Assembly (NCBI GenBank): GCA_024220505.1 | Contig: JAKZZE010000002.1 | Coordinates: forward strand, 744,001-808,000 | DNA length: 64,000 bases | Direction: 5' to 3' | Source: Rhizopus arrhizus | Lineage: Eukaryota; Mucoromycota; Mucoromycetes; Mucorales; Rhizopodaceae | Shown here: positions 24,885-60,820 of the stretch, piece by piece | How the letters are laid out: each line of letters starts with the position of its first letter | How positions within the stretch are numbered: the stretch's first letter is position 1 | Position numbers and translations under genes: made by a program | Notes under the pieces: model-generated | The model's input: the letters and a program-made list of their open reading frames with translations, nothing else | The model's database searches: none | Told to the model about the DNA's origin: nothing

Positions 24885-24958
24885 TGGTCACTACGAGGGT
24901 CGAACTCGCGACCTTGGCGTTATTAGCACCACGCTCTAACCAACTGAGCTAAGCGACC
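24885..24958 (-). tRNA. tRNA-Ile(AAU)
   Basis: A 74-nt cloverleaf without intron. The acceptor GGTCGCT pairs with AGTGACC (one G.U) and the discriminator is A. The D arm is GCTC/GAGC, the anticodon stem TGGTG/CGCCA with loop CTAATAA (anticodon AAU), and the T arm GCGAG/CTCGT with loop TTCGACC. All stems close, so the gene looks functional. Its 5' end is directly joined to LINE1: the first 15 nt in reverse complement are the repeated junction sequence of the LINE/SINE array. The 3' end matches the primer site of Ty3-1. Confidence 0.96.
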
Positions 24959-25156
24959 ACCTTTCTTTCGCTCTTCCGACCGTTACACAAGGTAGACGAC
25001 GCGTAATCAACTTTGAACTCGATTATCTCACCCAATACTATACATCCATCAACCGTTTTACTATCAAAAAATTCGCCTAATTTTTCTCTACAAGATATAT
25101 TTTTTTCAAGTTCATAACTCCTTTTCTTGCAATTTTCGACATCTTCGACATTACCC

Positions 25157-26143
25157 ATGTCAACTAATCCCGGTCTTAACATTTCACCCATCTCAACAGA
25201 TGGCGTTGCAAATGTCGACATTTCCAATATTCCAAATATTCAAGAAACTTTACACTATTTGTTAAACACCGTTACTGCACTACAACAAGAAGTTTCGACA
25301 CATGCTAGTGTCATTGCTGAACTTTCTGCTCTGCGCACTGAAAATGCGTCTTTAAAATCCAAAATTGCGACTTTAGAAGCGCAATTGGCTTCATCTTCTT
25401 CTCCTTCTGTCGCTTCTGCTGCTTCTGTCTCTGTTCCTGCTGCTAAACCAACTTCTTTGGCTGCACAAAATGTTTCGCCTGCTGTCCAAGCTACATACTC
25501 TGCTGTTGCTGCTCGTCCTGCTGTTCGTTCTCCATCTAAAAAGCGCAAATTGGCTGCTAGTCGCGCTTTCCAACCCATTGATCCCGATGCCCCACGCGGT
25601 TTTAAATACTTGTATCTCAATCGCAATCGTAAGTTAACTCGCTCTGAGATTCGAAGAAATCTTCGCTTGCTTGGTCTGGACTTGTCTCGTGTCCTCGATG
25701 TCTGTTTCCCTGGCCCCAAGGCTATTGGTCTTTTGGTCCATGTTCAGTATGTGCCAGAGGTGATCTCTCTGCTCGCTACTGCAAAGGTTCCGTTGGTTGA
25801 CGGTTTTGATCCCCTGGATCCCGTCAACTTGGCTGATCCTGAGCTTCAGCACCTCTCCCTATCTGCAAAGGCGGATAAGTGTGCTGAACTTCACTACTCC
25901 CGCTGTTGTCGTGCTCTTTCTCGTCTTGGTGCTGGTCGTCCCCATTTGGTCGCCCCAGTAGGTAAGTATTTCTCTTCCCATGGCTGGATCGATGACGACT
26001 CCTTGAGTCAGATTCTTTCTGAGCTTCCCCCTTCCTCTTTTGCTTCTCGTGGTAGAGATCCAGGCGCTGCTTTCCGTGGTGACACGGTCATGTCAGATGC
26101 TTTGGCCTCTGATTCCGCTAGTGCTGGATCACACTCATTATGA
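25157..26143 (+). CDS. LINE1 ORF1, nucleic-acid-binding-type protein
   Basis: 328 residues from the ATG at 25157. Residues about 35-90 form a predicted coiled coil (TVTALQQEVSTHASVIAEL, then RTENASLKSKIATLEAQL), as in trimer-forming L1 ORF1 proteins. A basic patch SPSKKRKLAASR near residue 135 may be a nuclear signal. The region after it (FKYLYLNRNRKLTRSEIRRN through IGLLVHVQYVPEVISLL) could be an RRM-like fold; that is inference. No zinc knuckle. The stop TGA overlaps the ORF2 ATG. Confidence 0.82.
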   Translation: MSTNPGLNISPISTDGVANVDISNIPNIQETLHYLLNTVTALQQEVSTHASVIAELSALRTENASLKSKIATLEAQLASSSSPSVASAASVSVPAAKPTSLAAQNVSPAVQATYSAVAARPAVRSPSKKRKLAASRAFQPIDPDAPRGFKYLYLNRNRKLTRSEIRRNLRLLGLDLSRVLDVCFPGPKAIGLLVHVQYVPEVISLLATAKVPLVDGFDPLDPVNLADPELQHLSLSAKADKCAELHYSRCCRALSRLGAGRPHLVAPVGKYFSSHGWIDDDSLSQILSELPPSSFASRGRDPGAAFRGDTVMSDALASDSASAGSHSL

Positions 26144-29100
26144 GTGAGGTCCAACACCTTTGTATAAGCCTTTGGAACGCGAATGGTCTTCGGACCACGA
26201 CCGTTCATGAAGTCCTGTCTCATTGCTTATCCTCCACACTCCTTTTTATTACCGAGACTTGGCTTCTTTCCCCTTCTCTCCTTCCCACTGACTGGATGCA
26301 GTATCATGTGTATGGTGTTCCTGTACCTTCGGCCAACCGTGGTTCGATGGGTGTTACTGCTCTGGTCTCTCCTTCTTGTCCCTTTCCTGTCTTTCAACTT
26401 CCTTCACCGAATCGGTATACCCTTTCGTTGAAGGTCGGACCCTTTCGCATTCATTGTTTGTATGTTCCTCCTCCTCTTTCCAACTCTGAATTTGTAAATG
26501 TACTTTCCTCCATCCCCTCCTTACCCAATACTTTTATTTGTGGCGACTTTAATGCTCGTCTTGGTGACCTCACTGGTGATGCATTGGTCTCTCCTCGTGG
26601 TGCTGCTATGGCTCGCTGGCTTGCTGATCGCTCCTTGACCGTTCTGAACGGCCCACTGGCTCATGGTATTCCTACCTGGGTCGGGTTTCGTGATGATCGA
26701 GAGATGAGTAGCATCATTGACATGTTTTTAACAAACGCGTCATTGATGTCTCCTCGCCTTGACATCGCGTCTGACTTGTCTCTTGGTTCTGATCATCGTC
26801 TACTCACGCTGTCTTTTTCATTTACTCAGTCAAGTGCCTCTGAGTCATTGTCTGATATACCTGATACCACTCTACATCCTCGTCGATTATGGAACTTGTC
26901 TCGCCTTGGTGAACCTGATCCATGTCAGCTGTATCAAGATACATTTCGTACGTCCTCTGCTCCTTTGCTTTCTCAACTGAAAAGGTTGGTTCAACACCCT
27001 CCTTCTTCACGTCCACCTATTGACGACCTCAACGCGTCGCTCAACAACATAATCTATCGTTCTCTTGACTCTTCTGTCGGTGATCGTCCTCCTCGTCCAT
27101 CCCATTGGAAAAAGTACTGGACACAACAATTACAAGATGCTGCTGACTTCCGCAACAGGTGCTACCGTAGATGGCGTCGTGCCTTTGGCATCGACAAAGT
27201 CTATTGGTGGCATCAACATCAACACGCAAATGTTTCTTTCCGTCAAGCTGTGGCCAATGCCAAGCGTCTGTCCTGGCAAGCATTTTGCAAGTCTCTCGAA
27301 TCTGACTTCACTAAAGCCGTTTCCAAAGTCAAGCAACTCAATCGACGACATCAGTCATCATCGTCGTTTTCCCATCCTGATGGTCCATCTAAGGCAGTGG
27401 AGGTAATGGCTAGTCACTTGGCTTCGGTCTTTGATGGCAGTCTTCTACCTTCCACTCGCCCACCACCTCCGTCATCTCCATCCTCTCTTGGTTTGCCTCT
27501 TGGTCTCCATGGTTCGTCTCCCTCTGGTTCGTTTCCCTCTGGTTCCGCTGGTTCTCCTGGTCCTTCAAATTCTCTCTTCGCTCCTTTAACTATTCACATG
27601 TACATCGGTCAGCTCCCTACTCGTAAAGCTCCTGGTGCTGATCACATCAAGGCCGAGATGCTCAAGCCGATCAGTACTGACCTGTCATTCATTCTTTCCT
27701 GGTTCTTTACTCTATGCTATCAATGGTCCTATGTTCCTTCTCTGTGGCGACATGCTCAAGTTTATCCCATTTTCAAGAAAGGTGATTCATCACTTCCCTC
27801 AAACTACCGTCCAATCTCACTCACATCTGTATTCCGCAAGCTACTTGAGCTGTCGCTGTCTCCATGGTTGTCCTCTGCATCTCCTCCTCTTGACCTTGCT
27901 CAAGGTGGTTTCCGTCCTCGTCGATCTGCCCTGGATCAGGCTCTGTGTCTACATGAACTGATACAATCATATTACCGTCGTTCTCATCGGTTTCCTGTGG
28001 TGGCATTCCTGGATATCAAGTCGGCCTACGATACCGTCGACCGGCGTGTTATCTGGGATGCTCTCTCTCGTTCTGGTGCTGGTTCATCTCCTTGTCTGCC
28101 TCTCTTGGTCCATCTTTTTGATGATGTCTCGGTGTCTGTCCTGGTGTCAAACCATTCTTCTGCTGCTTTCTCTCCTGTCACCGGTGTCTTGCAAGGTTCT
28201 GTTCTCAGTCCTCACTTGTACTCGGTGTACATCAACACATTACCTGCTCTCCTCCGTCAAGTCGCTGCTCCTGCTACCCATTTGGTTCCCTCCTCTGGTT
28301 CTGCTGATGCTGGTATGGTCCCAGTGAACTCTCTCCTCTTTGCTGACGATGTCGCAGTCATTGGCTCGGCAAAGTCAGTCAAAGAGATGCTCAAGCTTTG
28401 CGAACAACATTCACTGTCTCTGGGTTATCGATGGAACCCAACAAAATGTGCGGTGCTCAACCATCCACCATTGTCATCTTCTTCGTCTTCCTCTGATCGC
28501 CTCCAGTTGTACGGTACTCCTCTGCCTTTGGTGGATGAGTTCGTATACCTTGGAGTGCCCTTCGTCAAGTCTGGTCTCTCTGCTCCTTCCTTGGTTTCTC
28601 TTCGGTCTCCTGGTGTACTCAAGGTTATGGCTATTTTAAACAAGATTGGTGTCAACCGTCAAGGTTTCTCTCTTCTGCTCTGCTCACGCATCTATGCTAC
28701 CTTTGTTCGCCCGAAGTTTGAGTATGGCCTAGCCATATCTCGGCTGACGGCAACCGACCTCAAATCTATAGAAAATCTGCAAGATCGCTGTCTTCGTCTC
28801 TTGGTTGGTGGTCATCGTACCTCTTCTACAACAATCATCAAGCATATTACCACGCTGCCATCTATGCGTCATCGTGTAGATGTGCTTACAACTCGCTACT
28901 GTCTTCGTGCTCGCTCTCTCCCTGCTTCTTGCTTGCTGTCTCTGCTGTCAACAACGCTACCTGTCTCTCGTATCAAGGTTCATCTTGAAAAGAATCCGCT
29001 CTTCTTGGCTCTGCCTTCTCCTCCTCCGTCCTCCGATGCTCGGCTCAAGACCTTCTTTCGCCAGTATCGTGAGCGTCAAGTCACGTCTATTGTCACCTCC

Positions 29101-29523
29101 ACTACCCAGGTTCTCCTACGCGCATGTCGCCCTGCTCTGGTGGTTGATCCCGTTCTTTACGTTCCTGCAACCCGTGCAGAACGCTCTCTCTTGGTTCGTT
29201 GGCGTCTTGGCTGGCTGCCAGGTAAGCCTGAAGACTGTCCTTGTGGCCGTGATCGTCGTTCCCGTCGCCACTTTCTTGAGTGCGATTTGATCCCGTCTTT
29301 CCTTTGGTCTGACCTTCCTCGCTGTCCTCCTGGGTCTTATCCCATTGACTTTGCTCTTTCCTCGTTGCCTCTTGGTCGCTCAGCTCGCTGTCCTCCTTGG
29401 TGGTCTTCTCTTCTGTTAATGCTCTGGCACATCCAACGCCTCTGCCGTCCTGATAGCTTCTATGCTATTGACTCTTCTCCTGGTGCCTTATGGTATTCTA
29501 GCTCTTCTCGTAACTCTGACTGA
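26140..29523 (+). CDS. LINE1 ORF2, endonuclease and reverse transcriptase
   Basis: 1127 residues. Residues 1-225 are an APE-type endonuclease: SLWNANGL, FITETW, ICGDFNARLGD (about 134) and LGSDHRLLTLSF (about 216). The reverse transcriptase spans about 490-780: RKAPGADHIKAEML, YPIFKKGDSSLPSNYRPISL, AFLDIKSAYDTVDR, GVLQGSVLSPHLYS, LLFADDVAVIG (catalytic DD near 735) and GYRWNPTKCAVL. A C-terminal Cys-His motif, CPCGRDRRSRRHFLEC, lies near 1032. No RNase H is seen. The frame starts inside the ORF1 stop codon (ATGA). It should nick the target and prime cDNA synthesis there. Confidence 0.93.
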   Translation: MSEVQHLCISLWNANGLRTTTVHEVLSHCLSSTLLFITETWLLSPSLLPTDWMQYHVYGVPVPSANRGSMGVTALVSPSCPFPVFQLPSPNRYTLSLKVGPFRIHCLYVPPPLSNSEFVNVLSSIPSLPNTFICGDFNARLGDLTGDALVSPRGAAMARWLADRSLTVLNGPLAHGIPTWVGFRDDREMSSIIDMFLTNASLMSPRLDIASDLSLGSDHRLLTLSFSFTQSSASESLSDIPDTTLHPRRLWNLSRLGEPDPCQLYQDTFRTSSAPLLSQLKRLVQHPPSSRPPIDDLNASLNNIIYRSLDSSVGDRPPRPSHWKKYWTQQLQDAADFRNRCYRRWRRAFGIDKVYWWHQHQHANVSFRQAVANAKRLSWQAFCKSLESDFTKAVSKVKQLNRRHQSSSSFSHPDGPSKAVEVMASHLASVFDGSLLPSTRPPPPSSPSSLGLPLGLHGSSPSGSFPSGSAGSPGPSNSLFAPLTIHMYIGQLPTRKAPGADHIKAEMLKPISTDLSFILSWFFTLCYQWSYVPSLWRHAQVYPIFKKGDSSLPSNYRPISLTSVFRKLLELSLSPWLSSASPPLDLAQGGFRPRRSALDQALCLHELIQSYYRRSHRFPVVAFLDIKSAYDTVDRRVIWDALSRSGAGSSPCLPLLVHLFDDVSVSVLVSNHSSAAFSPVTGVLQGSVLSPHLYSVYINTLPALLRQVAAPATHLVPSSGSADAGMVPVNSLLFADDVAVIGSAKSVKEMLKLCEQHSLSLGYRWNPTKCAVLNHPPLSSSSSSSDRLQLYGTPLPLVDEFVYLGVPFVKSGLSAPSLVSLRSPGVLKVMAILNKIGVNRQGFSLLLCSRIYATFVRPKFEYGLAISRLTATDLKSIENLQDRCLRLLVGGHRTSSTTIIKHITTLPSMRHRVDVLTTRYCLRARSLPASCLLSLLSTTLPVSRIKVHLEKNPLFLALPSPPPSSDARLKTFFRQYRERQVTSIVTSTTQVLLRACRPALVVDPVLYVPATRAERSLLVRWRLGWLPGKPEDCPCGRDRRSRRHFLECDLIPSFLWSDLPRCPPGSYPIDFALSSLPLGRSARCPPWWSSLLLMLWHIQRLCRPDSFYAIDSSPGALWYSSSSRNSD

Positions 29524-29804
29524 AACCCTTCTTTGTCTGTCTCCTGCTGATCCCCCACGGAAGTAAAGCCATCAAAGTTCCTTACCGTTGGGCTGTGACA
29601 GTAGGTCAGCTAAGTTGTGGAAGTAGGCAGTCAATCTGATCTTTTGCTTTATCATTTTTTTGGAGTTTTTCTGTTTCTCAGGCTCCTTTTTTTGTACCTT
29701 ATTCTTTTTTCATTGTACTTGAAGATGCAATAATGACTTTTTAGTCGCCTGCAAATATCTTCCTATTAAATAAAAACAAAATCTTTAACCTGAGCTAAGC
29801 GACC

Positions 29805-30331
29805 GGGGATGTGGATGTAGCTCAGTCGGTAGAGCGTCTGACTATTATTGGTGTGGTCGCAAGTTCGACCCCTGATAGGATCTTCGGATCTATCCTTTCC
29901 CTGCCCCTCTACATGTTCTGTTTGCCGAGTGCATCAAGCACTTTTGTTTCTCCGCCTGTGTGTTGCGTTGCGTAGCAGCTGAGCATCTGTCTACTTTCCT
30001 TCCCTTTCGGGGGACTTTGGTGTGCGCTCTTGATGATAATACTGGTTTTAACGCCACTGCTGTTCTGGTCGGTTGGTCTGCGTTGGTTGTTTGTCGAGCG
30101 TTGTTGGTCCGCGGTGCCGGGATGCCCAGCCCGGGCTTAATGAAGCGCGTTCTGTTCTGCCTCAAGTCTTCGTCTCTGGTTCCAGCTCCCCCCAATATTA
30201 ATTCGTTCCTTCTTTCTTCCTTTCCCTCCTCCCCCATAATAGTTTGTATGCTTTCCAGTTTATCACTGTGGATAGCAATAATGACATATTTGTCGCCTGC
30301 ATATTATCCAATAAAATATAAAATCTTTAAC
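29805..30331 (+). mobile_element. SINE copy 1 (tRNA-headed, LINE-tailed)
   Basis: 527 bp between two 15-mers (29790-29804 and 30332-30346). The head is tRNA-like with a perfect Pol III A box, TAGCTCAGTCGG (29818-29829), and B box, GTTCGACCC (29863-29871). The body is unique. The last 60 bp or so resemble the LINE 3' tail: GCAATAATGACATATTTGTC, then CGCCTGCA, AATAAAATA and ATCTTTAAC. That architecture is the definition of a SINE depending on a partner LINE. Confidence 0.92.
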
Positions 30332-30346
30332 CTGAGCTAAGCGACC

Positions 30347-30853
30347 AAGGTATGTGGAGATAGTGCAAATGGTTAGAGCGTCTGCCTATCATTCGGGAGG
30401 TTGCAAGTTCAACCCCTCGTATCCGCATATCTACCCTTTCCGCACTCTAACTGCATGTTCTCTTTCTGCGGTGCTTTAAGCACTGAATGATTTTGTCTTG
30501 TGTGTCGCGTTGAGCGACAGCTTTGTATCTGTTCGCCTTCCTTCCCTCCATTGTTGTTTGGTGTTGTGCCGCTTGATAACACCTGGTTTTAATGCCACAA
30601 GTTGCTTCGGTGGTATGAGGTGTTTGTTGATCGTTGTCTGTGCGTTGCCTGGATTCCCAGCCCCGGGATTAAAGAAGCACCGTTCTGTCTCTGCCTCAAG
30701 TCTTCGTCTATGGTTTCTGCTTCAAGATTGTAATTCGCTCCTTCCCCCATTCCCCCCTAATAACTTGTATGCTTTCCAGGATGTTCCTGTGGATTGCAAT
30801 AATGATTTGTTAATCGCCTGCATATAATCCAATAAAATATAAAAATCTTTAAC
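30347..30853 (+). mobile_element. SINE copy 2, a different subfamily
   Basis: 507 bp between 15-mers. The head is another tRNA-like sequence: TATGTGGA near the start pairs with TCCGCATA after the T arm. It has a weak A-box-like TAGTGCAAATGG (30361-30372) and a good B box, GTTCAACCC (30407-30415). The body is alignable with SINE1 but strongly diverged. The tail keeps the LINE-like end with a changed but still complementary hairpin. Confidence 0.88.
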
Positions 30854-31058
30854 CTGAGCTAAGCGACCGACCTTTCGTTCGCTCTTCCGACCGTTACACA
30901 AGGTATAGTACGCGTAATCAACTTTGAACTCAAATATCTCTGCGAATACGATACATCCATCCACCGTTTTAACACCAAAATAATCGTCGTATTTTTCTCT
31001 ACAAACTATATTTTTTTCAACTCGATTGCTGTATTTTTCACCATTTTCGACATTTCCC

Positions 31059-32063
31059 ATGTCTCAACAATCTGGCTCCCCCATTTCGCTCATCTCGCAA
31101 GATGGAGTGGCAAATGTCAACATTCCAAACCCTTCTGACATGCAACAAGCTTTGCAATATTTATTGCACAACTTCCAAACCCTCCAGCAACGTGTTTCAA
31201 CACACGATGACTTGTTTGCTGAACTGACTGCTTTACGCAGTGAAAATGCTACTTTGAAGGCGAAAATCGCCTCGCTTGAAGCTCAAATCTCCGCTGGCGC
31301 TGACGTCAACAGTTCTTCCGCTTTTTCCTCTTTGGCTTCCGACCCGGCATCCATACGTGCGCCCCAAAATGCACCCCAAATGAACAATGCAACCTATAGT
31401 TCTATTGCTGCCAAGGCTGCTGCTACTACTGCTACTACTACCCGTCGCCCAACTAGCAAGAAGCGAAAGCTTGCTGCTAGTCGTCCCTTCCAACCAGTTG
31501 ACCCTTCTGCTCCTCGTGGTTTTGAATACCTGTACTTGCACCGTAACCGTAAGCTCACCCGTGCTGAAGTTAGACGCAACTTGCGTCTACTTGGTCTTGA
31601 CCTCTCTCGTCTGCTTGATATCTGCTTCCCTGGACCCAAGGTCATTGGTCTATTGGTCCATGTTCTCTACAAAGAAGAGGTGATCTCTCTTTTATCCACA
31701 GCCAAGGTTCCGTTGGTTGACGGTTTTGATCCTCTGGATCCTGGCAACTTGGCGGATCCTGAGCTCCAGCATCTTTCATCGGCTGACAAAGCTAACGAAT
31801 GTGCTGAGCTCCAGTTCACTCGCTGCTCCCGTGCTCTCTCTCGTCTTGGTGCTGGCCGTGCTCACCTGGTGGGTCTCATAGGTAAGTACTTTTCTTCCAA
31901 GGGATGGATCGATGAGGACTCTTTGAGTCAGATTCTGTCTTCCCTCCCCTCTCCTCTTTCTGCTTCTCGTGGTCGTGACCCAGGCGCTGCTTTCCGTGGT
32001 GACACGGTCATGTCAGATGCTTTGGTCTCTGATTCCGCTAGTGCTGGATCACACTCATTATGA
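31059..32063 (+). CDS. LINE2 ORF1
   Basis: 334 residues from the ATG at 31059 (MSQQSGSPISL). Coiled coil about residues 35-90 (DMQQALQYLLHNFQTLQQRV, ENATLKAKIASLEAQI), an Ala/Thr-rich linker, basic TSKKRKLAASR, then the conserved C-terminal half. Compared with LINE1 ORF1 it is longer in the linker, and its N-terminal third differs more than the rest. Confidence 0.82.
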   Translation: MSQQSGSPISLISQDGVANVNIPNPSDMQQALQYLLHNFQTLQQRVSTHDDLFAELTALRSENATLKAKIASLEAQISAGADVNSSSAFSSLASDPASIRAPQNAPQMNNATYSSIAAKAAATTATTTRRPTSKKRKLAASRPFQPVDPSAPRGFEYLYLHRNRKLTRAEVRRNLRLLGLDLSRLLDICFPGPKVIGLLVHVLYKEEVISLLSTAKVPLVDGFDPLDPGNLADPELQHLSSADKANECAELQFTRCSRALSRLGAGRAHLVGLIGKYFSSKGWIDEDSLSQILSSLPSPLSASRGRDPGAAFRGDTVMSDALVSDSASAGSHSL

Positions 32064-35000
32064 GTGAGGTCCATCACCTTTCTATAAGCCTTTGGAACGC
32101 GAATGGTCTTCGGACCACGACCGTTCATGAAGTCTTGTCTCATTGTCTCTCCTCTACTCTCCTTTTCATCACCGAGACTTGGCTTCTTTCCCCTTCTCTT
32201 CTTCCTACTGACTGGATGCAGTATCATGTGTATGGTGTTCCTGTACCTTCGGCCAACCGTGGTTCGATGGGTGTTACTGCTCTGGTCTCTCCTTCTTGTC
32301 CCTTTCCTGTCTCTCAACTTCCTTCACCGAATCGGTATACCCTTTCGTTGAAGGTCGGACCCTTTCGCCTTCATTGTTTGTATGTACCTCCTCCTCTTTC
32401 CAACTCTGAATTTGTAAATGTACTTTCCTCCATCCCCTCCTTACCCAATACTTTTATTTGTGGCGACTTCAATGCTCGTCTTGGTGACCTCACTGGTGAT
32501 GCATTGGTCTCTCCTCGTGGTGCTGCTATGGCTCGCTGGCTTGCTGATCGCTCCTTGACCGTTCTGAACGGCCCACTGGCTCATGGTATTCCTACCTGGG
32601 TCGGGTTTCGTGATGATCGAGAGATGAGTAGCATCATTGACATGTTTTTAACAAACGCGTCATTGATGTCTCCTCGCCTTGACATCGCGTCTGACTTGTC
32701 TCTTGGTTCTGATCATCGTCTACTAACGCTGTCATTTTCTTTTGCTCAGTCAAGTGCCTCTGAGTCTATGTCTGATACCAATGATACCACACTACATCCT
32801 CGTCGACTATGGAACTTGTCTCGCCTTGGTGAACCTGATCCATGTCAGCTGTATCAAGATACTTTTCGTTCGTCCTCTGCTCCTTTGCTTTCTCAACTGA
32901 AAAGGTTGGTTCAACACCCTCCTTCTTCACGTCCGCCTATTGACGACCTCAACGCGTCGCTCAACTCAATCATCTACCGCTCTCTTGACTCTTCTGTCGG
33001 TGATCGTCCACCTCGTCCATCCCATTGGAAAAAGTACTGGACACAACAACTTCAAGATGCTGCTGACTTCCGCAACAGGTGCTACCGTAGATGGCGTCGT
33101 GCCTTTGGCATTGACAAAGTCTATTGGTGGCATCAACACCAACAAGCAAATGTTTCCTTTCGTCAAGCTGTGGCCAATGCCAAACGTCTGTCCTGGCAAG
33201 CATTCTGCAAGTCCCTTGAGTCTGACTTTACTAAAGCCATCTCAAAAGTAAAGCAACTCAAACGTCGTCACCTCACTTCATCCTCATTCACTCATCCTGA
33301 TGGTCCGGCTACGGCAGTGGAAGTAATGGCTCGTCACTTGGCTTCTGTCTATGATGGTCACTTGCTTCCATCTGTCCGCCCGCCTTCTCCTCCTGATCCG
33401 TCTTCTCTTGGTTTGCCCTTTGGTCCTCCTGGTTCGTCTCCTTTGGTTGTCTCTTCTGGTGCTGCTGCTCAAATTCTTACATCTACTGCTCATTCCGCTC
33501 ATTTCAACACTTCAATATTCTCGCCTGCAACATTGGCTTCACTTATCGGTCAACTGCCTACGCGCAAAGCTCCTGGTGCTGATCACATCAAGGCCGAGAT
33601 GCTCAAGCCGATCAGTACTGACCTGTCATTCATTCTTTCCTGGTTCTTCACTCTATGCTATCAATGGTCCTATGTTCCTTCTCTGTGGCGACATGCTCAA
33701 GTTTATCCCATTTTCAAGAAAGGTGATTCATCACTTCCCTCAAACTACCGTCCAATCTCACTCACATCTGTATTCCGCAAGCTACTTGAGCTGTCGCTGT
33801 CTCCATGGTTGTCCTCTGTCTCTCCTCCTCTTGACCTTGCTCAAGGTGGTTTCCGTCCTCGTCGGTCTGCTCTGGATCAGGCTCTATGCCTACATGAACT
33901 GATACAATCGTACTACCGTCGCTCCCATCGGTTTCCTGTGGTGGCATTCCTGGATATCAAGTCGGCCTACGATACCGTCGATCGGCGTGTTATCTGGGAT
34001 GCTCTCTCTCGCTCTGGTGCGTCAAGTCCGTTCCTGTCTCTCTTGGTCCATCTGTTTGATGATGTCTCGGTGTCTGTCTTGGTGTCCAATCACTCGTCCG
34101 CTCCTTTCTCTCCTGTCACCGGTGTCTTGCAAGGTTCTGTTCTCAGTCCTCACTTGTACTCGGTGTACATCAACACTCTACCCTCCTTACTTCGTCAAGT
34201 CGCTGCTCCTGCCACCCATTTGGTTCCCTCCTCTGGTCGCTCCGATGCTGGTATGGTCCCAGTGAACTCTCTCCTCTTTGCTGACGATGTCGCAGTCATT
34301 GGCTCGGCAAAGTCAGTCAAAGAGATGCTCAAGCTATGTGAACAACATTCGCTGTCTCTGGGTTATCGATGGAACCCTACAAAATGTGCGGTGCTCAACC
34401 ACCCACCATCATCTTCTTCCTCGTCCGATCGCCTCCAGTTATATGATACTCCTCTGCCTTTGGTGGATGACTTCGTATATCTTGGAGTGCCCTTCGTCAA
34501 GTCTGGTTTCTCTGCTCCTTCTTTGGTTTCTCTCCGGTCTCCTGGTGTCATCAAGGTTATGGCTATCCTGAACAAGATTGGTGTCAATCGTCAAGGTTTC
34601 TCTCTTTTGCTCTGCTCACGCATCTATGCCACCTTTGTTCGCCCGAAGTTTGAGTATGGCCTAGCCATATCTCGGCTGACGGCAACTGACCTCAAGTCTA
34701 TTGAAAGCTTACAAGATCGCTGTCTCCGTCTCTTGGTTGGTGGTCATCGTACCTCGTCTACTATTATTATCAAGCATATTACAACACTGCCATCCATGCG
34801 CCATCGCATAGATGTGCTTGTCACTCGTTACTGTCTTCGTGCCCGCTCTCTTCCTAGATCTTGCCTGCTGTCTCTCTTGTCATCAACACTGCCTGTCTCT
34901 CGAATCAAGATCCATCTTGAAAAGAATCCGCTTTTCTTGGCTTTGCCTTCTCCTCCTCCGTCCTCCGATGCTCGGCTCAAGACCTTCTTTCGCCAGTATC

Positions 35001-35455
35001 GTGAGCGTCAAGTCATCTCTATCGTCACCTCCACTACCCAGGTTCTCTTACGCGCATGTCGCCCTGCTCTGGTGGTTGATCCCATTCTCTACGTTCCTGC
35101 AACCCGTGCAGAACGCTCTCTCTTGGTACGTTGGCGTCTTGGCTGGCTGCCAGGTAAGCCTGAAGACTGTCCTTGTGGCCGTGATCGTCGTTCCCGTCGC
35201 CACTTTCTTGAGTGCGATTTGATACCGTCTTTCCTCTGGTCTGATCTGCCTCGCTGTCCTCCTGGGTCCTACCCTATAGACTTTGCTCTTTCCTCGTTGC
35301 CTCTTGGTCGCTCAGCTCGCTGTCCTCCTTGGTGGTCATCACTCCTATTGATGCTTTCGCATATCCAACGTCTCTGTCGTCCTGATAGGAATCTTCCTAT
35401 TGACTCTTCTCCTGGTGCCTTATGGTATTCAAGTTCTTCTCGTCACCCTGACTGA
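32060..35455 (+). CDS. LINE2 ORF2, endonuclease and reverse transcriptase
   Basis: 1131 residues, open throughout, with all motifs described for LINE1 ORF2 (GDFNARLGD, SDHRLL, AFLDIKSAYDTVD, FADDVAVIG, CPCGRDRRSRRHFLEC). The linker between endonuclease and reverse transcriptase (HLLPSVRPPSPPDPSSLGL, then HFNTSIFSPATLASL) belongs to the type shared with LINE3, not the type in LINE1 and LINE4. The C-terminal part is nearest to LINE1. Confidence 0.93.
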   Translation: MSEVHHLSISLWNANGLRTTTVHEVLSHCLSSTLLFITETWLLSPSLLPTDWMQYHVYGVPVPSANRGSMGVTALVSPSCPFPVSQLPSPNRYTLSLKVGPFRLHCLYVPPPLSNSEFVNVLSSIPSLPNTFICGDFNARLGDLTGDALVSPRGAAMARWLADRSLTVLNGPLAHGIPTWVGFRDDREMSSIIDMFLTNASLMSPRLDIASDLSLGSDHRLLTLSFSFAQSSASESMSDTNDTTLHPRRLWNLSRLGEPDPCQLYQDTFRSSSAPLLSQLKRLVQHPPSSRPPIDDLNASLNSIIYRSLDSSVGDRPPRPSHWKKYWTQQLQDAADFRNRCYRRWRRAFGIDKVYWWHQHQQANVSFRQAVANAKRLSWQAFCKSLESDFTKAISKVKQLKRRHLTSSSFTHPDGPATAVEVMARHLASVYDGHLLPSVRPPSPPDPSSLGLPFGPPGSSPLVVSSGAAAQILTSTAHSAHFNTSIFSPATLASLIGQLPTRKAPGADHIKAEMLKPISTDLSFILSWFFTLCYQWSYVPSLWRHAQVYPIFKKGDSSLPSNYRPISLTSVFRKLLELSLSPWLSSVSPPLDLAQGGFRPRRSALDQALCLHELIQSYYRRSHRFPVVAFLDIKSAYDTVDRRVIWDALSRSGASSPFLSLLVHLFDDVSVSVLVSNHSSAPFSPVTGVLQGSVLSPHLYSVYINTLPSLLRQVAAPATHLVPSSGRSDAGMVPVNSLLFADDVAVIGSAKSVKEMLKLCEQHSLSLGYRWNPTKCAVLNHPPSSSSSSDRLQLYDTPLPLVDDFVYLGVPFVKSGFSAPSLVSLRSPGVIKVMAILNKIGVNRQGFSLLLCSRIYATFVRPKFEYGLAISRLTATDLKSIESLQDRCLRLLVGGHRTSSTIIIKHITTLPSMRHRIDVLVTRYCLRARSLPRSCLLSLLSSTLPVSRIKIHLEKNPLFLALPSPPPSSDARLKTFFRQYRERQVISIVTSTTQVLLRACRPALVVDPILYVPATRAERSLLVRWRLGWLPGKPEDCPCGRDRRSRRHFLECDLIPSFLWSDLPRCPPGSYPIDFALSSLPLGRSARCPPWWSSLLLMLSHIQRLCRPDRNLPIDSSPGALWYSSSSRHPD

Positions 35456-35737
35456 AACCCTTCTTTGTCTGTCTCCTGCTGATCCCCCACGGAAGTAAAG
35501 CCATCAAAGTTCCTAACGTTGGGTTGTGACAGTAGGTCAGTTAAGTTGTGGAAGTAGGCAGTCAATCTGATCTTTTGCTTTGTCTTTTTTTTGGAGTTTT
35601 TCTGTTTCTCAGGCTCCTTTTTTTGTACCTTATTCTTTTTTCATTGTACTTGAAGATGCAACAATGACTTTTTAGTCGCCTGCAATATATCTTCGTTATT
35701 TAATAAAAACAAAATCTTTAACCTGAGCTAAGCGACC

Positions 35738-36264: not shown

Positions 36265-36465
36265 CTGAGCTAAGCGACCTTTCTTTCGCTCTTCCGACCG
36301 TTACACAAGGTATAGTACGCGTAATCAACTTTGAACTCGAATATCTCTGCGAATACGATACATCCATCTACCGTTTTAACACCAAAATAATCGTCGTATT
36401 TTTCTCTACAAACTATATTTTTTTCAACTCGATTGCTGTATTTTTCACCATTTTCGACATTTCCC

Positions 36466-42700: not shown

Positions 42701-42847
42701 GTACTTGAAGATGCAATAATGACTTTTTAGTCGCCTGCAAATATCTTCCTATTAAATAAAACAAAATCTTTAACCTGAGCTAAGCGACCGGGGATGTGGA
42801 TGTAGCTCAGTCGGTAGAGCGTCTGACTATTATTGGTGTGGTCGCAA

Positions 42848-50210: not shown

Positions 50211-50369
50211 TTATCCTCCCCCAGACTTGACAATAGTCAGGTCGGCATTCATGCAGATACTAAATGTTATTTTCTTATTGGTTAATTTATGTATCTTGAT
50301 GCTCAGCAAGTTTATGAAGTCAGCGGCCGCTCTGCTACATGAACTTTTTTTTTTTTTTTTTTTTTTTTT

Positions 50370-53300: not shown

Positions 53301-53920
53301 TTTGCTCCCTTTTCCATTGGTAACTCTACTACAGATTCTGGTACTGTGCAGAAAGATCCAGCAGGAATATTTTGGTTGTCATCAATTGCACTCTGGATAT
53401 AAGCCATGAATTGCTTTTGTTGATCTTCGGTACCATAGGGTGAGTTGTTAGGTTCAATCTCATTATTAGCGTCAAAATTCATATTAAGGAATTGTGCGTC
53501 TTCTTTTAATCTATTTGAATAATCATCTTCATTACCTGGGTACTTGTATGCTACCCCAGTGAGACCGATATTCATTTTTCCAAGAACATCAGTTCCAAGC
53601 AAGACATCAAATTCTTGTTTCATTGTCTCATTAAAATTTACAACTTCAAAAGAATGTTTAAAAGAGATGTTATTCATATATGTTAAAGTGAGAGGATCAG
53701 TTTGTCCAATTCGTTTACAATTATTATCTGAAGACAAAAAATTTAAAGAACCATTTACAGAATTCACTTTGTCAATATTCAATTTATTATTCAAACAAAT
53801 TTTTGATATACAAGTGATATCACTGCCAGTGTCAATCTTTCCAATTAATTTCTTGCCCTCTATTAATATAGGAGTCAAAAGTTTAAATGGATTAGTATCT
53901 TCATCTTCAGTTTTTTTATT
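50370..53920 (-). pseudogene. Ty3-2 Pol: protease, RT, RNase H, integrase, chromodomain (one frameshift)
   Basis: The 5' part (53878-52595) has a retropepsin IDTGSDITC, then the reverse transcriptase with FNSPLLMVPKKDENNEI, KIDLKNAYNSFL and YVDDCVIKG. The 3' part (52595-50370) has RNase H (ATDASQYGVGAVLTQ, RTDHKALMYL) and an integrase zinc domain (HTFGHFGST...SCIECQRH). The catalytic core follows, with Asp in IGIDLLGPL, Asp in QSDNGREF and Glu in GVSESAVKT. A C-terminal chromodomain (VKWAGYGERENTWEKASSF) ends the protein. The two parts differ by one base at an A5 run near 52600, where A6 would keep the frame. The chromodomain suggests targeting to marked chromatin. Confidence 0.93.
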
Positions 53921-55303
53921 TCATAATGCCTTACAGTCATATGAGTGATTTTCAGCTTCTGTCATATCATGATCATGATCATTTTCTTCATTTGCAGTAC
54001 GAACAATGGCATAAATTGACTTGTCCGAATCTCTTGGATTTTTTGGATCGACATGAAGTTTTCTTTTATAGTCTGCATATTCTTGACAATGATGGCCATG
54101 AGACCAACTTCTACCGCAATAGCGACAGGGTTTACTTGTGCTTGCCTTATGAGGAAAATTTTTATTGCCATAATATTTGTTGTTTATGGTCGACGCAGCA
54201 TCATTTTTCTTTTTTGTTTTACTATAGCAATCATCTTCATTGTGATTTGCAGCTGTACCACCATGTCTTGAACAAAAGAAAGCACCAGACGAACCATGAC
54301 CTTTGTTTCTTTTTTGAACACTGAAAGGACCAGCATTTGTGTGGATTCTTTTACTACCACTGGCGACATTGGCATAGGATGCTCCTGAATATGTTCTCGG
54401 GTCATCTCCTAGCAAATTTCTTGCTATTTCAGCAGCTCTCTCTACAGTCCATGGTATGTTCTTATTTTCTTTTAAAACAAAAGCTGTCTTACACTTCTCA
54501 AGAACAGGTTCAGAGAATGATGCTTTAAATCTAGCAGCCACCATTGGATCATTTTTATTTGCCCCAGCCTCAATACAAGTGCTTAAAAATCGGGTCATAT
54601 ACGAAGAGACAGATTCATTTTTATTCATTGTCATAGTGAATAGACGATGCATAGCATCTGTTCTAGCATTATCAGTCAGGAATTTGTTCGTAAAGACAAT
54701 TCTAGCTGTGTTCCATGTATCACATCTTTTGAGCTCTTTTTCGATCCAATCATCATGGTCGAAGGCCAAAGAAACAGGGAGATACCGGCGCCAAACCTCT
54801 TGAATGTCCAAGGCAGCAGAATAGATTACCTTTTCAAAGGACCGCAAAAAGTGTTCGACAGATTCGTAACATTTCTCACCAGGAAATGGGATATCAGGCC
54901 AAGAAGAGAGTTGAAACTTGGGTATGTCATTTTGGGTCAAACGCAAACCAATTTCCTTCTTGACAGGAGTGATTACAGGAGAAACAAATTTACCAGAGAG
55001 AGCAAGCAACTGTGCACCATATTTTCTCATTTTCTTAAACGCCAAGTCTGCTTGTTCTTCTTCACCAGCCATTATATGTTTTTGATATAACCGAGCAGAT
55101 TCTTCCTTTTTATACCTTATGAGTTTTGAAACTTCAGCATCAATGTCATCATGATCAGAGGTAATTTCATGCGCATTGGCATTTATTTTTGGGGTTACTT
55201 CAGAGCCATCTTCAGTAAGAGAGGGGTCTTGACTTGCTTGTTCGATCTCCATATCGGATGGATCATGCTCCATGGGTCGATCTTCTTGTTTAGGGCTTTC
55301 CAT
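53921..55303 (-). CDS. Ty3-2 Gag
   Basis: 460 residues, intact. The acidic N-terminus is followed by a capsid-type domain (residues about 125-300: FPGEKCYESVEHFLRSFEKV, RFLSTCIEAG, FKASFSEPVLEKCKTAFVL). Near residue 400 is a single zinc knuckle of the Ty3 variant, CRYCGRSWSHGHHC (CX2CX7HXC). The frame ends at TGA (53921-53923), and the same frame continues open into protease, so Gag-Pol could be made by stop readthrough. It assembles the particle and packages RNA. Confidence 0.9.
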   Translation of the reverse strand: MESPKQEDRPMEHDPSDMEIEQASQDPSLTEDGSEVTPKINANAHEITSDHDDIDAEVSKLIRYKKEESARLYQKHIMAGEEEQADLAFKKMRKYGAQLLALSGKFVSPVITPVKKEIGLRLTQNDIPKFQLSSWPDIPFPGEKCYESVEHFLRSFEKVIYSAALDIQEVWRRYLPVSLAFDHDDWIEKELKRCDTWNTARIVFTNKFLTDNARTDAMHRLFTMTMNKNESVSSYMTRFLSTCIEAGANKNDPMVAARFKASFSEPVLEKCKTAFVLKENKNIPWTVERAAEIARNLLGDDPRTYSGASYANVASGSKRIHTNAGPFSVQKRNKGHGSSGAFFCSRHGGTAANHNEDDCYSKTKKKNDAASTINNKYYGNKNFPHKASTSKPCRYCGRSWSHGHHCQEYADYKRKLHVDPKNPRDSDKSIYAIVRTANEENDHDHDMTEAENHSYDCKAL

Positions 55304-55350
55304 AGCAGTTTACCAGGGTAGGAACCAGAAGGATGATTAATTTTAAAAAA

Positions 55351-55810
55351 TGTTTTAATCGCAAGATTAAATAAAAAATTAAACAAAAAAACAATAGCAG
55401 CAATATAAAATTAAAATCCTTCTTTATTGCAGATTTCTTTATATTGCGAAAAGGCCTCGCTTTATGGATAAAAAGTTGGCATCTATTTATATTCTTTGTG
55501 AGCGTAGATATAAAAGATATAGACTCGGTCACGATGTCGTGCTGAAGAACCAATGATTAAGCTAAAGCTTGTCGATGTTCTAATATATGCATCTGAAGTT
55601 GAACAATAGAAATAATAACCAGTCAATTAACTTTGATCTAATTACTTTTGGGGTTGACAATTGATTAGACTCTCTAGGATGACAGATATTGATCTTATTG
55701 TTCTAAATTTGGAAAAGTGTGGAATTGTTCAATCATAGTTTAATCTTTTGTGTATCGTTATTTATTTTAATACAACTGATATCATATAGAAAATAACTAT
55801 GTTTACAACA
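55351..55810 (-). repeat. Ty3-2 5' LTR
   Basis: 460 bp, the upstream LTR in the element's direction. Followed by ATTGT, matching the sequence before the 3' LTR. Confidence 0.95.
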
Positions 55811-55815
55811 ATTGT

Positions 55816-56665
55816 TATAGATGAATGCTGCTCTGCTTTGGCCTCTTTCTGTTTCTTTCCTAATTTTCGCTTTGGTTCTTAAGTACTGATGTCTTTTCTT
55901 TTGCTTTGAGTGCCCAAGTCCTTGAATCCTTGAATCCTTGAATCCTTGTGTCTCTGAATCCTTGAGCTTGGCTTTTTTTTTTTTTTTTCTTTTTTTCTTT
56001 TGAGAACTTTTTGAGTTCCACGAGACTAGTTGATGTATTTTTAGATTAGATGCTGCTATTCTGGTGACATTAGGTAAGTCAAGTACACTTTTAAAACGCT
56101 ACAAGCAAAGAAATATCATATTTTGTTATTATTATTTTATTCAAATAAAAAAAAAGCTATTTTTTATAAACAAAATCCCTATTTTTTTGTATATATAAAG
56201 CAATATTTATTGCAATATGAATGGTCAATAAAGAAGTATATAAGCTATATAAGTGGTCAATAAAGAAGTATATAAAGCAATATGAGTGGTTCATAAAGAA
56301 ATATATAAGGCAATATGGGTGGTCAATAAAGAAGTATATAAGGCAATATGAGTGTTCGATGAAGAAGTATATAAGGCAATATGAGCGGTCGATAAAAGAA
56401 CAAAAAGACATATAAAGTAATGTTTTAAAACGTATCATTCGTTGCTCAAACGTTGACTAGTATTAATTGAAACGTAAAAAATGCTTTGGTAAAAGAACAC
56501 TAAACGACCTCCTCTTGCTTGCGTAAAAGTTATTTAACGATTACTGCTCTGCCTCGAAAATCGTTTAAAAGAGCAATAAAATTCCGTGGAGTTGCGTTAA
56601 ACTTCGCGTTGTTGCGCTCATTTATGCTAAAAAACTACGTTTAATATCTCCAATTATTTGCAGTG
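55816..56665. other. Right end of CACTA-2
   Basis: No gene. Contains CCTTGAAT repeated about four times (55919-55950), T runs near 55973-56000, the 33-bp tandem array listed next, and the right inverted end. Confidence 0.6.
56218..56400. repeat. 33-bp tandem array, about 5-6 units
   Basis: Units like GTGGTCAATAAAGAAGTATA followed by TAAGGCAATATGA. Because 33 is a multiple of three, frames stay open through it on both strands, but the products are merely repeats and not credible genes. It lies 260-450 bp from the CACTA-2 end and might act as a transposase-binding array; that is inference. Confidence 0.8.
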
Positions 56666-57342
56666 CAAGTTCGACCCCTGATAGGATCTTCGGATCTATC
56701 CCTTCCCTGCCCCTCTACATGTTCTGTTTGCCGAGTGCATCAAGCACTTTTGTTTCTCCGCCTGTGTGTTGCGTTGCGTAGCAGCTGAGCATCTGTCTAC
56801 TTTCCTTCCCTTTCGGGGGACTTTGGTGTGCGCTCTTGACGATAATACTGGTTTTAACGCCACTGCTGTTCTGGTCGGTTGGTCTGCGTTGGTTGTTTGT
56901 CGAGCGTTGTTGGTCCGCGGTGCCGGGATGCCCAGCCCGGGCTTAATGAAGCGCGTTCTGTTCCTGCCTCAAGTCTTCGTCTCTGGTTCCAGCTCCCCCC
57001 AATAATAATCCGTTCCTTCTTTCTTCCTTTCCCTCCTCCCCCATAATAGTTTGTATGCTTTCCAGTTTATCACTGTGGATAGCAATAATGACATATTTGT
57101 CGCCTGCAATTATCCAATAAAATATAAAATCTTTAACCTGAGCTAAGCGACCCACCTTTCTTTCGCTCTTCCGACCGTTACACAAGGTATAGTACGCGTA
57201 ATCAACTTTGAACTCAAATATCTCTGCGAATACGATACATCCATCCACCGTTTTAACACCAAAATAATCGTCGTATTTTTCTCTACAAGTTATATTTTTT
57301 TCAACTCGATTGCTGTATTTTTCACCATTTTCGACATTTCCC

Positions 57343-58347
57343 ATGTCTCAACAATCTGGCACTCCCATTTCGCTCATCTCGCAAGATGGAGTTGCAAATG
57401 TCAACATTACAAACCCTTCTGACATGCAACAAGCTCTGCAATATTTATTGCACAACTTTCAAACCCTCCAGCAATGTGTTTCAACCCACGATGACTTGTT
57501 TGCTGAACTGACTGCTTTACGCAGTGAAAATGCTACTTTGAAGGCGAAAATCGCCTCACTTGAATCCCAACTCTCCGCTGGCGCTGACGTCAACAATTCT
57601 TCCGCTTTCTCTTCTTTGACTTCCGATCCGGCATCCATACGTGCACCCCAAGATGCACCTCAAAAGAACAATGCAACCTATAGTGCTATTGCTGCCAAGG
57701 CTGCTGCTACTACTGCTACTACTACCCGTCGCCCACCTAGCAAGAAGCGAAAGCTTGCTGCTAGTCGCCCATTCCAACCAGTTGACCCTTCTGCTCCTCG
57801 TGGTTTCGAATACCTGTACTTGCATAGAAACCGCAAGCTGTCCCGTGCTGAAATTAGACGCAACCTGCGTTTACTTGGTCTTGATCTTTCCCGTGTCTTG
57901 GACATCTGCTTCCCTGGCCCAAAGGCCATTGGTCTCCTGATCCATGTTCTTTACAAAGAAGAGGTGATCTCTCTTCTTTCTGCTGCCAAGGTTCCGTTGG
58001 TTGACGGTTTTGATCCTTTGGATCCTGTCCACTTGGCGGATCCTGAGCTCCAGCATCTTTCATCGGCTGACAAGGCTAATGAATGTGCTGAGCTTCAGTT
58101 CACTCGCTGCTCCCGTGCTCTCTCTCGTCTTGGTGCTGGCCGTGCTCATCTGGTGGGTCCCGTAGGTAAGTACTTTTCTTCCAAGGGTTGGATCGATGAG
58201 GACTCTTTGAGTCAGATTCTATCCTCCCTCCCTTCTCCCCTTTCTGCTTCTCGTGGTCGTGACCCAGGCGCTGCTTTCCGTGGTGACACGGTCATGTCAG
58301 ATGCTTTGGTCTCTGATTCCGCTAGTGCTGGATCACACTCATTATGA
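57343..58347 (+). CDS. LINE4 ORF1
   Basis: 334 residues, intact and closest to LINE3 ORF1. Coiled coil, basic SKKRKLAASR patch and conserved C-terminal half. The stop overlaps the ORF2 start (ATGA at 58344-58347). Confidence 0.82.
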   Translation: MSQQSGTPISLISQDGVANVNITNPSDMQQALQYLLHNFQTLQQCVSTHDDLFAELTALRSENATLKAKIASLESQLSAGADVNNSSAFSSLTSDPASIRAPQDAPQKNNATYSAIAAKAAATTATTTRRPPSKKRKLAASRPFQPVDPSAPRGFEYLYLHRNRKLSRAEIRRNLRLLGLDLSRVLDICFPGPKAIGLLIHVLYKEEVISLLSAAKVPLVDGFDPLDPVHLADPELQHLSSADKANECAELQFTRCSRALSRLGAGRAHLVGPVGKYFSSKGWIDEDSLSQILSSLPSPLSASRGRDPGAAFRGDTVMSDALVSDSASAGSHSL

Positions 58348-60820
58348 GTGAGGTCCATCACCTTTCTATAAGCCTTTGGAACGCGAATGGTCTTCGGACC
58401 ACGACCGTTCATGAAGTCTTGTCTCATTGTCTCTCCTCTACTCTCCTTTTCATCACCGAGACTTGGCTTCTTTCCCCTTCTCTTCTTCCTACTGACTGGA
58501 TGCAGTATCATGTGTATGGTGTTCCTGTACCTTCGGCCAACCGTGGTTCGATGGGTGTTACTGCTCTGGTCTCTCCTTCTTGTCCCTTTCCTGTCTCTCA
58601 ACTTCCTTCACCGAATCGGTATACCCTTTCGTTGAAGGTCGGACCCTTTCGCCTTCATTGTTTGTATGTACCTCCTCCTCTTTCTAACTCTGAATTTATT
58701 AATGTACTTTCCTCCATCCCCTCCTTACCCAATACTTTTATTTGTGGCGACTTTAATGCTCGTCTTGGTGACCTCACTGGTGATGCATTGGTCTCTCCTC
58801 GTGGTGCTGCTATGGCTCGCTGGCTTGCTGATCGCTCCTTGACCGTTCTGAACGGCCCACTGGCTCATGGTATTCCTACCTGGGTCGGGTTTCGTGATGA
58901 TCGAGAGATGAGTAGCATCATTGACATGTTTTTAACAAACGCGTCATTGATGTCTCCTCGCCTTGACATCGCGTCTGACTTGTCTCTTGGTTCTGATCAT
59001 CGTCTACTCACGCTGTCATTTACTTTTGCTCAGTCAAGTGCCTCTGAGTCTATGTCTGAAACATCTGATACCACAATACATCCTCGTCGACTATGGAACT
59101 TGTCTCGCCTTTGTGAACCTGATCCATGTCAGCTGTATCAAGATACATTTCGCTCGTCTTCTGCTCCTTTGCTTTCTCAACTGAAAAGGTTGGTTCAACA
59201 CCCTCCTTCTTCACGTCCGCCTATTGACGACCTCAACGCGTCGCTCAACTCAATCATCTACCGCTCTCTTGACTCTTCTGTCGGTGATCGTCCACCTCGT
59301 CCATCCCATTGGAAAAAGTACTGGACACAACAACTGCAAGATGCTGCTGACTTCCGTAATAGATGTTACCGTAGATGGCGTCGTGCCTTTGGTATTGACA
59401 AAGTCTATTGGTGGCATCAACATCAACAAGCGAATGTCTCCTTTCGCCAAGCTGTGGCCAATGCCAAACGTCTGTCCTGGCAAGCATTTTGCAAGTCTCT
59501 CGAATCTGACTTCACTAAAGCCGTTTCCAAAGTCAAGCAACTCAAACGACGACATCAGTCATCTTCATCATTCTCTCATCCTGATGGTCCGTCTAAGGCA
59601 GTGGAGGTAATGGCTAGTCACTTGGCTTCGGTCTTTGATGGCAGTCTTCTACCTTCCACTCGCCCATCACCACCTCCATCTCCATCCTCTCTTGGTTTGC
59701 CTCTTGGTCTCCATGGTTCATCTCCTTCTGGTACGTCTCCCTCTGGTTCATCTGGTCCTCCTGGTTCATCAAACACACTATTCGCTCCTTTAACAATACA
59801 TATGTACATCGGTCAGCTCCCTACTCGTAAAGCTCCTGGTGCTGATCACATCAAGGCCGAGATGCTCAAGCCGATCAGTACTGACCTCTCCCACTTGCTG
59901 TCTTGGTTCTTTTCCCTATGCTGTCAATGGTCCTACGTTCCTTCTCTCTGGCGGCATGCTCAAGTCTATCCGATCTTCAAGAAAGGTGATCCTTCGCTGC
60001 CGTCCAACTATCGACCCATCTCACTGACCTCGGTGTTTAGAAAGCTCCTTGAGCTTAGTCTTGCTCCATGGCTCGCCTCGGTGTCGCCTCGACTTGATCT
60101 GGCTCAAGGTGGCTTTCGTCCTCGTCGCTCAGCTCTTGACCAAGCCCTATGTCTTCATGAGCTGATGCAGTCCTACTATCGTCGATCTCATCGTTTTCCT
60201 GTGGTGGCATTCCTAGATATCAAGTCGGCCTACGATACCGTCGACCGACGTGTTATCTGGGATGCTCTCTCTCGTTCTGGTGCTGGTTCGTCTCCTTGTC
60301 TGCCTCTCTTGGTTCATCTTTTTGATGATGTCTCGGTGTCTGTCTTGGTGTCCAATCAATCGTCCGCTCCTTTTTCTCCTGTCACCGGTGTCTTGCAAGG
60401 TTCTGTTCTCAGTCCTCACTTGTACTCGGTGTACATCAATACATTACCTGCTCTTCTTCGTCAAGTCGCTGCTCCTGCCACCCATTTGGTTCCCTCCTCT
60501 GGTTCTGCTGATGCTGGTATGGTCCCAGTGAACTCTCTCCTCTTTGCTGATGATGTCGCAGTCATTGGCTCGGCAAAGTCAGTCAAAGAGATGCTCAAGC
60601 TCTGTGAGGATCACTCGTTGTCTCTTGGCTATCGCTGGAATCCTCTGAAGTGCGCGGTGCTCAACCACCCCACTTCCTCTTCATCATCATCTGGTTCAAC
60701 CCAATTAAGCCTCTATGGTATTTCTCTCCCCTTGGTCGACAAGTTCGTATACCTTGGTATGCCTTTCGTCAAGACTGGTCTCTCTGCTGCTTCGGTGCTT
60801 CCTCTTCGTTCTCCTGGTGT
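58344..60820 (+). pseudogene. LINE4 ORF2, truncated
   Basis: About 826 LINE residues: the complete endonuclease, linker and reverse transcriptase through PLVDKFVYLGMPFVKTG, then cut at Merlin. The linker (LLPSTRPSPPPSPSSLG, LFAPLTIHMYIGQL) is of the LINE1 type, while the stretch after FADD is of the LINE3 type. The C-terminal Cys-His region is missing. Confidence 0.9.

Follow-up and report, generated by a model that had tools for sequence, protein, structure and literature searches.

LINE and SINE arrays at tRNA genes of Rhizopus arrhizus and their probable growth through a remade target

The Drosophila R1 elements are long interspersed nuclear elements (LINEs) that form tandem arrays in the 28S ribosomal DNA (rDNA), and the consulted part of PMC2718515 describes a 14-bp duplication between their units and the same growth model as we propose here. 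The elements TRE5, TRE3, NLTR-A and NLTR-B target regions near tRNA genes, as far as the consulted parts of PMC5911963 and PMC5006619 go. LINEs account for 3.78% of the Rhizopus oryzae assembly, and its Ty3 elements are co-localised with tRNA genes, according to the consulted part of PMC2699053. Here, we analysed 64,000 nucleotides of Rhizopus arrhizus DNA (the window: assembly GCA_024220505.1, contig JAKZZE010000002.1, positions 744,001 to 808,000), in which LINEs and short interspersed nuclear elements (SINEs) stand head to tail on a tRNA-Ile(AAT) gene.

Very probably, LINEs of the APE endonuclease type and SINEs that borrow their machinery are specialised for tRNA genes and build arrays through a target that each insertion remakes. 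The sequences support a fixed insertion site, a 14-bp duplication, intact tRNA genes, a common 3′ tail and growth by retrotransposition. Positions below are those of the window unless a contig of the assembly (50.26 Mb, 41 contigs, the window being on contig C12) is named.

The array in the window and its elements

The anchor of the array is an intact tRNA-Ile(AAT) gene on the minus strand (24885..24958; the ARAGORN call spans 24884-24959). Its nucleotides 1-14 (24945..24958, minus strand) hold the half A box T8-R9-G10-Y11-N-N-A14 and are the duplicated target. BLAST of the units against the window bears out the eight same-direction units of the original prediction in their order of LINE1, SINE1, SINE2, LINE2, SINE3, LINE3, SINE4 and LINE4. 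The exact 15-mer CTGAGCTAAGCGACC was predicted between the units and is indeed at 24944, 29790, 30332, 30854, 35723, 36265, 42775 and 57138. No extra match with up to 2 mismatches occurs in the window, and shuffled sequences give a mean of 0.04.

All units are on the plus strand. LINE1 (24959..29790) is a full-length family A element with both open reading frames (ORFs) open, and its 3′ tail (29721..29790) ends with TCTTTAAC and one C, probably element-coded, that starts the first junction (29790..29804) ahead of the 14-bp duplication. SINE1 (29805..30331, type 1, with a tRNA-like head), a junction (30332..30346), SINE2 (30347..30853, type 2) and another junction (30854..30868) come next. LINE2 (30869..35722), a full-length family B element with 87.4% identity to LINE1, is followed by a junction (35723..35737), SINE3 (35738..36264, type 1) and a junction (36265..36279). 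Beyond them are LINE3 (36280..42774, family B), a junction (42775..42789), SINE4 (42790..57137, type 1, split after its first 58 bp), the last junction (57138..57152) and LINE4 (57153..60820). LINE4 breaks off at 60820, lacking its 3′ part and a terminal 15-mer, and the array's outer end is therefore not visible.

The near-constant unit length that had been predicted holds for the five uninterrupted units, two LINEs of 4831 and 4854 bp and three SINEs of 527, 507 and 527 bp. It does not extend to LINE3 and SINE4, both split by other elements, and the incomplete LINE4.

The LINE1 ORF1 was scanned as 25157..26143 (the mechanical ORF list has its start at 25127) and gives sub-threshold profile matches only, mainly to coiled-coil families. 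ORF2 (26140..29523) contains both an APE endonuclease (about 5-229) and a reverse transcriptase (546-807). This domain pair, along with 5′ truncation at intact 3′ ends and target duplication, places the LINEs among the APE-type LINEs. Among the matches listed, ORF2 shares 85% identity with a Rhizopus stolonifer protein across its length, 83-96% with shorter pieces from R. arrhizus and 90% with an R. delemar piece. Its protein relatives are found in Mucor, Phycomyces, Umbelopsis and Cokeromyces (in the best 120 of 407 matches, with 7984 candidates scored), and the PDB sequence search returned only L1 and R2 reverse transcriptases.

None of the three uninterrupted SINEs (two of type 1 and one of type 2) has an ORF of at least 150 amino acids. 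The SINE heads are tRNA-like by inspection, and the SINE tails resemble the LINE tail in sequence and fold, as in tRNA-derived SINEs with LINE-borrowed tails. A nested fold is predicted for all eight tails, and the inner stem has a covariation of 0.554 against 0.173 in shuffled alignments (0/500, 8 rows). The SINEs may well borrow the LINE machinery by way of this common 3′ nested hairpin. A further SINE-like unit of about 161 bp occurs at the same Ile junction with a different 3′ end, TTTTCGA or TTTCGA (C3:1635638, C14:1062455 and C12:1-89).

The target at tRNA genes across the genome

A search of the whole genome found 95 exact Ile 15-mers against 0.03 expected from base composition, and nine of them lie inside tRNA-Ile genes. 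There are ten tRNA-Ile loci, the eleventh row of the search being a tRNA-Val. Nine of them, the window copy included, match all 74 bases and the C18 copy matches only nucleotides 8-74. Insertions occupy the tRNA 5′ end at eight of the ten. Five have a LINE there, two (C3 and C14, a duplicated region) have a SINE of about 161 bp and then a LINE, and one has a short SINE2-like leader, then other sequence and then a LINE array. The two empty loci are both on C25 and have identical flanks.

The intervals between successive 15-mers in ten groups are LINE-sized in 41 cases, SINE-sized in 16, 176-177 bp in 2 and other in 23, and an array holds up to 16 junction copies. Among the 77 5′ ends of the LINE families in the window, 64 lie directly behind an exact Ile 15-mer. 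Ten others lie at other tRNA sequences (Ala, Phe) or at damaged Ile sequence, and three are unexplained. The prediction of a site-specific LINE that duplicates tRNA bases and remakes its target is therefore supported by the 64 of 77, with the correction that the target is not tRNA-Ile alone.

An assembly artefact is unlikely, because the insertions recur at eight of the ten tRNA-Ile loci and neighbouring LINEs differ in the arrays read. On C3, C12, C13, C14 and C18, array units or element 3′ ends come to within a few kb of where the contig ends, and such arrays may break the assembly.

At other loci, the same element 3′ ends continue into the first bases of other tRNAs. At nine of the eleven tRNA-Ala(AGC) genes, a clear LINE or SINE adjoins the gene directly, and the other two (C29 and C34) have a short leader only. 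Six genes share the score of the one tRNA-Phe called by ARAGORN (C16); three of these have a LINE or LINE-like 5′ end, and three have short leaders or sequence common to other tRNA flanks. A wider survey took 20 loci (2 Arg, 6 Lys-TTT, 4 Trp, 4 Gly-TCC and 4 Lys-CTT) from 63 tRNAs scored among 2878 candidates. Directly at the gene, four have LINE-like sequence shared over at least 50 bp, six have a short leader and then sequence common to another tRNA flank, three are ambiguous and seven have no element-like sequence.

Family D is probably another LINE, judging from its LINE-like 5′ end and a unit spacing of about 5.02 kb. All 57 examined of its 78 5′ ends are at tRNA sequence: 26 at a tRNA-Pro 14-mer with 50 copies in the genome, three at tRNA genes and, of the remaining 49, all 28 that were read, which adjoin a tRNA gene or a tRNA-like 14-mer junction. 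Two of these 28 junctions are altered or shortened (L165 and L163). At L141, L158 and L167 no tRNA gene with the 14-mer was seen, and at L150, L151, L156 and L162 only the first bases of the tRNA gene are visible.

Some tRNA flanks, TGACGAAGTCGG among them, had been taken as unknown elements, and this was dropped in favour of probable starts of long terminal repeats (LTRs) behind LINE- or SINE-like leaders. Three TG-starting sequences recur 8-12 bp from different tRNA genes behind such short leaders, in the groups L012, L125, L127 and L138; L122, L135 and L137; and L092 and L132. They are probably the LTRs of Ty3 elements inserted into the leader.

The length of the duplication follows from the base before the 14-mer. 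The tRNA-Ala gene has T before TGAGCTACATCCCC on the element strand, and the 20 exact junctions read carry C. That junction pattern search demanded the C; a separate 3′-end search did not (102 found, 100 listed), and no T was at this position among the listed 3′ ends read. Two tRNA-Phe junctions carry A against C in the gene, and two tRNA-Gly junctions carry C against T. The off-target copy C41:892168 has TGAGTGGATTCTTC on both flanks, preceded by T on one and C on the other, keeping TGAG and a 14-bp duplication. In all 25 informative junctions (20 Ala, 2 Phe, 2 Gly and one off-target), this base differs from the target. Thus the duplication is tRNA nucleotides 1-14, 14 bp rather than the 15 first proposed, and the opening C of the 15-mer most plausibly comes from the element.

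Fifteen distinct 14-mers were tabulated, leaving aside mutated copies (L057, L059, L163 and L165), junction L050, leader-only tRNAs and the off-target site. Eight belong to genes called by ARAGORN (Ile, Ala, Phe, Pro, Asp, Gly-TCC, Gly-GCC and Lys-TTT). Four were assigned by our reading (Thr, His, Cys and Val), ARAGORN calling no tRNA in those pieces, and for three (GGGGAAATGGTGTA, GCCCGTTTAGCACA and TCCTCAATGGTCCA) no tRNA gene was called. All fifteen have T8, G10 and A14, a purine at 9 and a pyrimidine at 11.

Array growth, its rival explanations and a proposed mechanism

The family A LINEs in the window and at C12:9747, C3:1652593 and C9:1171486 have long open ORFs and an identity of 99.5-99.9% to one another, and neighbouring LINEs in the arrays are 86-94% identical (15 full LINEs compared). 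Such near-identical copies between diverged neighbours argue for growth by retrotransposition. Moreover, 5′-truncated units end cleanly at 15-mers or tRNAs. The C3 and C14 arrays have their first five units in common and a duplicated left flank, while the sixth unit is a young family A LINE in C3, with another one at that place in C14. This points to insertion at inner junctions, the alternative being loss from C14.

Extra bases at some 5′ junctions agree with the final bases of a different tRNA's 14-mer. At a tRNA-Ala they are CGACC (Ile), at a tRNA-Gly AAGCC (Pro, after two more bases) and at other junctions GAAGCC (Pro). We read them as possible traces of the source locus, from RNA that would start just upstream of the element. 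At C41:1957083-1968306, a tRNA-Ala array switches internally from Ala to Ile junctions, either by recombination between arrays or from a template carrying Ile sequence.

The arrays could instead have arisen from a single insertion, with unequal crossing-over or replication slippage multiplying the unit and its 15-mer. The duplicated left flank and five units common to C3 and C14 show that duplication does act on arrays, and the switch of junctions on C41 also fits it. As the main route, it was rejected on the divergence of about 6-14% between neighbours, with family A copies elsewhere nearly identical, and the irregular alternation of LINEs and SINE types and the complete junctions of truncated units speak against it as well; we consider it improbable. 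Still less credible is that the 15-mer is the element's own 3′ end, carried along with no target duplication. The 15-mer is identical at the junctions of the tRNA-Ile arrays and the base outside the 14-mer seems element-coded, but behind the same TCTTTAAC end the bases become those of Ala, Pro, Gly-GCC and, by our own reading, Thr, and other 3′ ends show Phe, Asp, Gly-TCC and, again by our reading, Cys and His. These locus-specific junctions exclude it for 14 bases and leave it standing for the 15th base only.

Another question is how the target is chosen. The endonuclease may read the half A box (T8-R9-G10-Y11-A14) in the DNA alone, with no tether to RNA polymerase III (Pol III). The cut at one base, the apparent use of junction 14-mers that lack a B box (C3 unit 6) and the off-target site that retains TGAG and the 14-bp duplication are in favour of this. 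However, about 0.9 million sites with T8-R9-G10-A14 are to be expected in the genome, a number that Y11 would about halve, and almost every insertion examined sits at tRNA sequence. With hundreds of thousands of half A boxes available, a further cue is needed, and the Pol III complex may be that cue. Hence reading by sequence alone is possible and rather doubtful.

Several points weigh against retrotransposition into a remade tRNA target. Three of the 77 LINE 5′ ends (C24:268869, C41:1968700 and C37:1346635) are unexplained, the former two sitting about 380 bp behind another LINE 5′ end. Four LINE 3′ ends (C4, C28, C39 and C41) are not in recognisable tRNA sequence, so the site specificity is not absolute. 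The 25 informative junctions do not stand for as many independent events, because an insertion into an existing junction inherits its base. The conserved T8, G10 and A14 are no proof that the enzyme reads them, since any tRNA gene set would show these bases.

The stem covariation comes from 8 rows only, one misaligned row opens three of the four pairs, two of the five shuffle measures are unexceptional and the fold z is above -1.2 in three of the eight tails. Tethering and target-primed reverse transcription are inferences only. No array was found with its original outer flank, and the C9 outer end is interrupted. The empty C25 locus matches the C9 array in parts of the left flank (best pieces 82-94%), and its right flank was not found within the 30 kb compared with C9. 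A clean comparison of both flanks between empty and filled sites is thus lacking.

In the mechanism that we propose for retrotransposition into the remade target, the endonuclease would nick the tRNA-sense strand after A14, within the A box. The free 3′ end, tRNA nucleotides 1-14, would prime reverse transcription of a LINE or SINE RNA recognised by the common 3′ nested hairpin. The other strand would be cut 14 bp off, at the tRNA 5′ end, and repair would put nucleotides 1-14 on both sides. The tRNA gene would then retain its bases and internal promoter, and the second copy of nucleotides 1-14 behind the element would be a fresh target. Further insertions at the tRNA or at an array junction would extend the array. 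The order of the strands, target priming, hairpin recognition, use of inner junctions and Pol III tethering are all conditional steps here.

More broadly, we lean toward a Mucorales guild of LINEs and SINEs that uses the universal A14 step of any tRNA gene, recognised by the Pol III complex with a local nick. The duplicated half A box would be a portable landing site, with self-seeding arrays at most tRNA genes of several isoacceptors.

The observations show a LINE system that has single-base precision inside tRNA genes of many isoacceptors and leaves the genes intact. It makes the choice of target, A-box sequence or Pol III tethering, testable. As a natural model, it lets one study how LINE machinery inserts at safe sites, and it comes with matched SINE partners and a defined 3′ hairpin. 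It also accounts for large repeat arrays in the Rhizopus genome, some of them near contig ends.

Other elements interrupt the window array. LINE3 is split by a Tc1/mariner element (38146..39781, plus strand, HTH_Tnp_Tc3_2 and DDE_3) with TA on its flanks. SINE4 is split in its B-box-like region by a CACTA/EnSpm-like element of 13.8 kb (42848..56665, no strand assigned), which has the terminal inverted repeat CACTGCAAATAATTGG, a 3-bp target site duplication CAA and Transposase_21, and in which a Ty3-type element is nested (ORFs 50370-55303). In 11 of the 20 array junctions read (L041, L043-L045, L047-L049, L051, L053, L054 and L056), CACTA-like termini with CACTGC ends are found no more than about 110 bp from the junction, often in a SINE head. 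Outside the array, a tandem-repeat pattern is present twice (3291-3371 and 22185-22265), 18.9 kb apart, around Ty3-type and Transposase_21 ORFs.

Comparison with known systems

The dictyostelid TRE5, TRE3 and NLTR-A are likewise non-LTR elements that use tRNA genes, with NLTR-A inserting 2-6 bp upstream (consulted parts of PMC5911963 and PMC5006619). They insert in a window outside the gene, as far as these sources tell, whereas the elements here insert at one base inside it. TRE5 enters about 40-54 bp upstream and TRE3 40-150 bp downstream, and our elements start at the tRNA 5′ end, so the Dictyostelium TRE named in the original prediction is a different mode. The words tandem, array and target site duplication are absent from PMC5006619.

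The Dada DNA transposons also enter tRNA genes themselves, which in Perkinsus happens at the A-box sequence TAGCTC. They differ in being DNA transposons with a 6-7 bp duplication and each family tied to its own tRNA, and the LINE Dewa is tRNA-linked and target-specific in the zebrafish tRNA-Leu spacer, not at the gene start (all from the part of PMC3706591 consulted). The R. oryzae Ty3 elements share a place beside tRNA genes and differ as LTR elements, and the consulted part of PMC2699053 does not state a link between LINEs and tRNA.

The open-licence literature searched, consulted in part, yielded no fungal LINE that inserts at a fixed base of tRNA genes. The prediction knew of no self-extending mixed LINE and SINE array in a fungus. 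Arrays that grow by insertion into the duplication made by the element itself have been described before, for R1 (PMC2718515). The growth mode is thus known, and the literature searched has no counterpart for the tRNA target and its breadth, for arrays in which LINEs and SINEs are mixed or for such a system in a fungus.

R1, the ancestral type, is the closest as an APE-type LINE with a 14-bp duplication, tandem arrays and insertion into its own duplication (PMC2718515). There, R1 averages at the highest two to three elements per inserted unit and SINE partners are not mentioned in the part consulted, while here an array has up to 16 junction copies and the SINEs share the arrays. The 14-bp duplication and the tandem arrays of the R1 clade are both found here, and its insertion into 28S rDNA is not; R1 is known from the 28S rDNA of an animal host in what we consulted, and many tRNA genes of a fungal host are the targets here. 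R1-clade members with other targets exist. In its mode, the system in R. arrhizus appears to work like R1.

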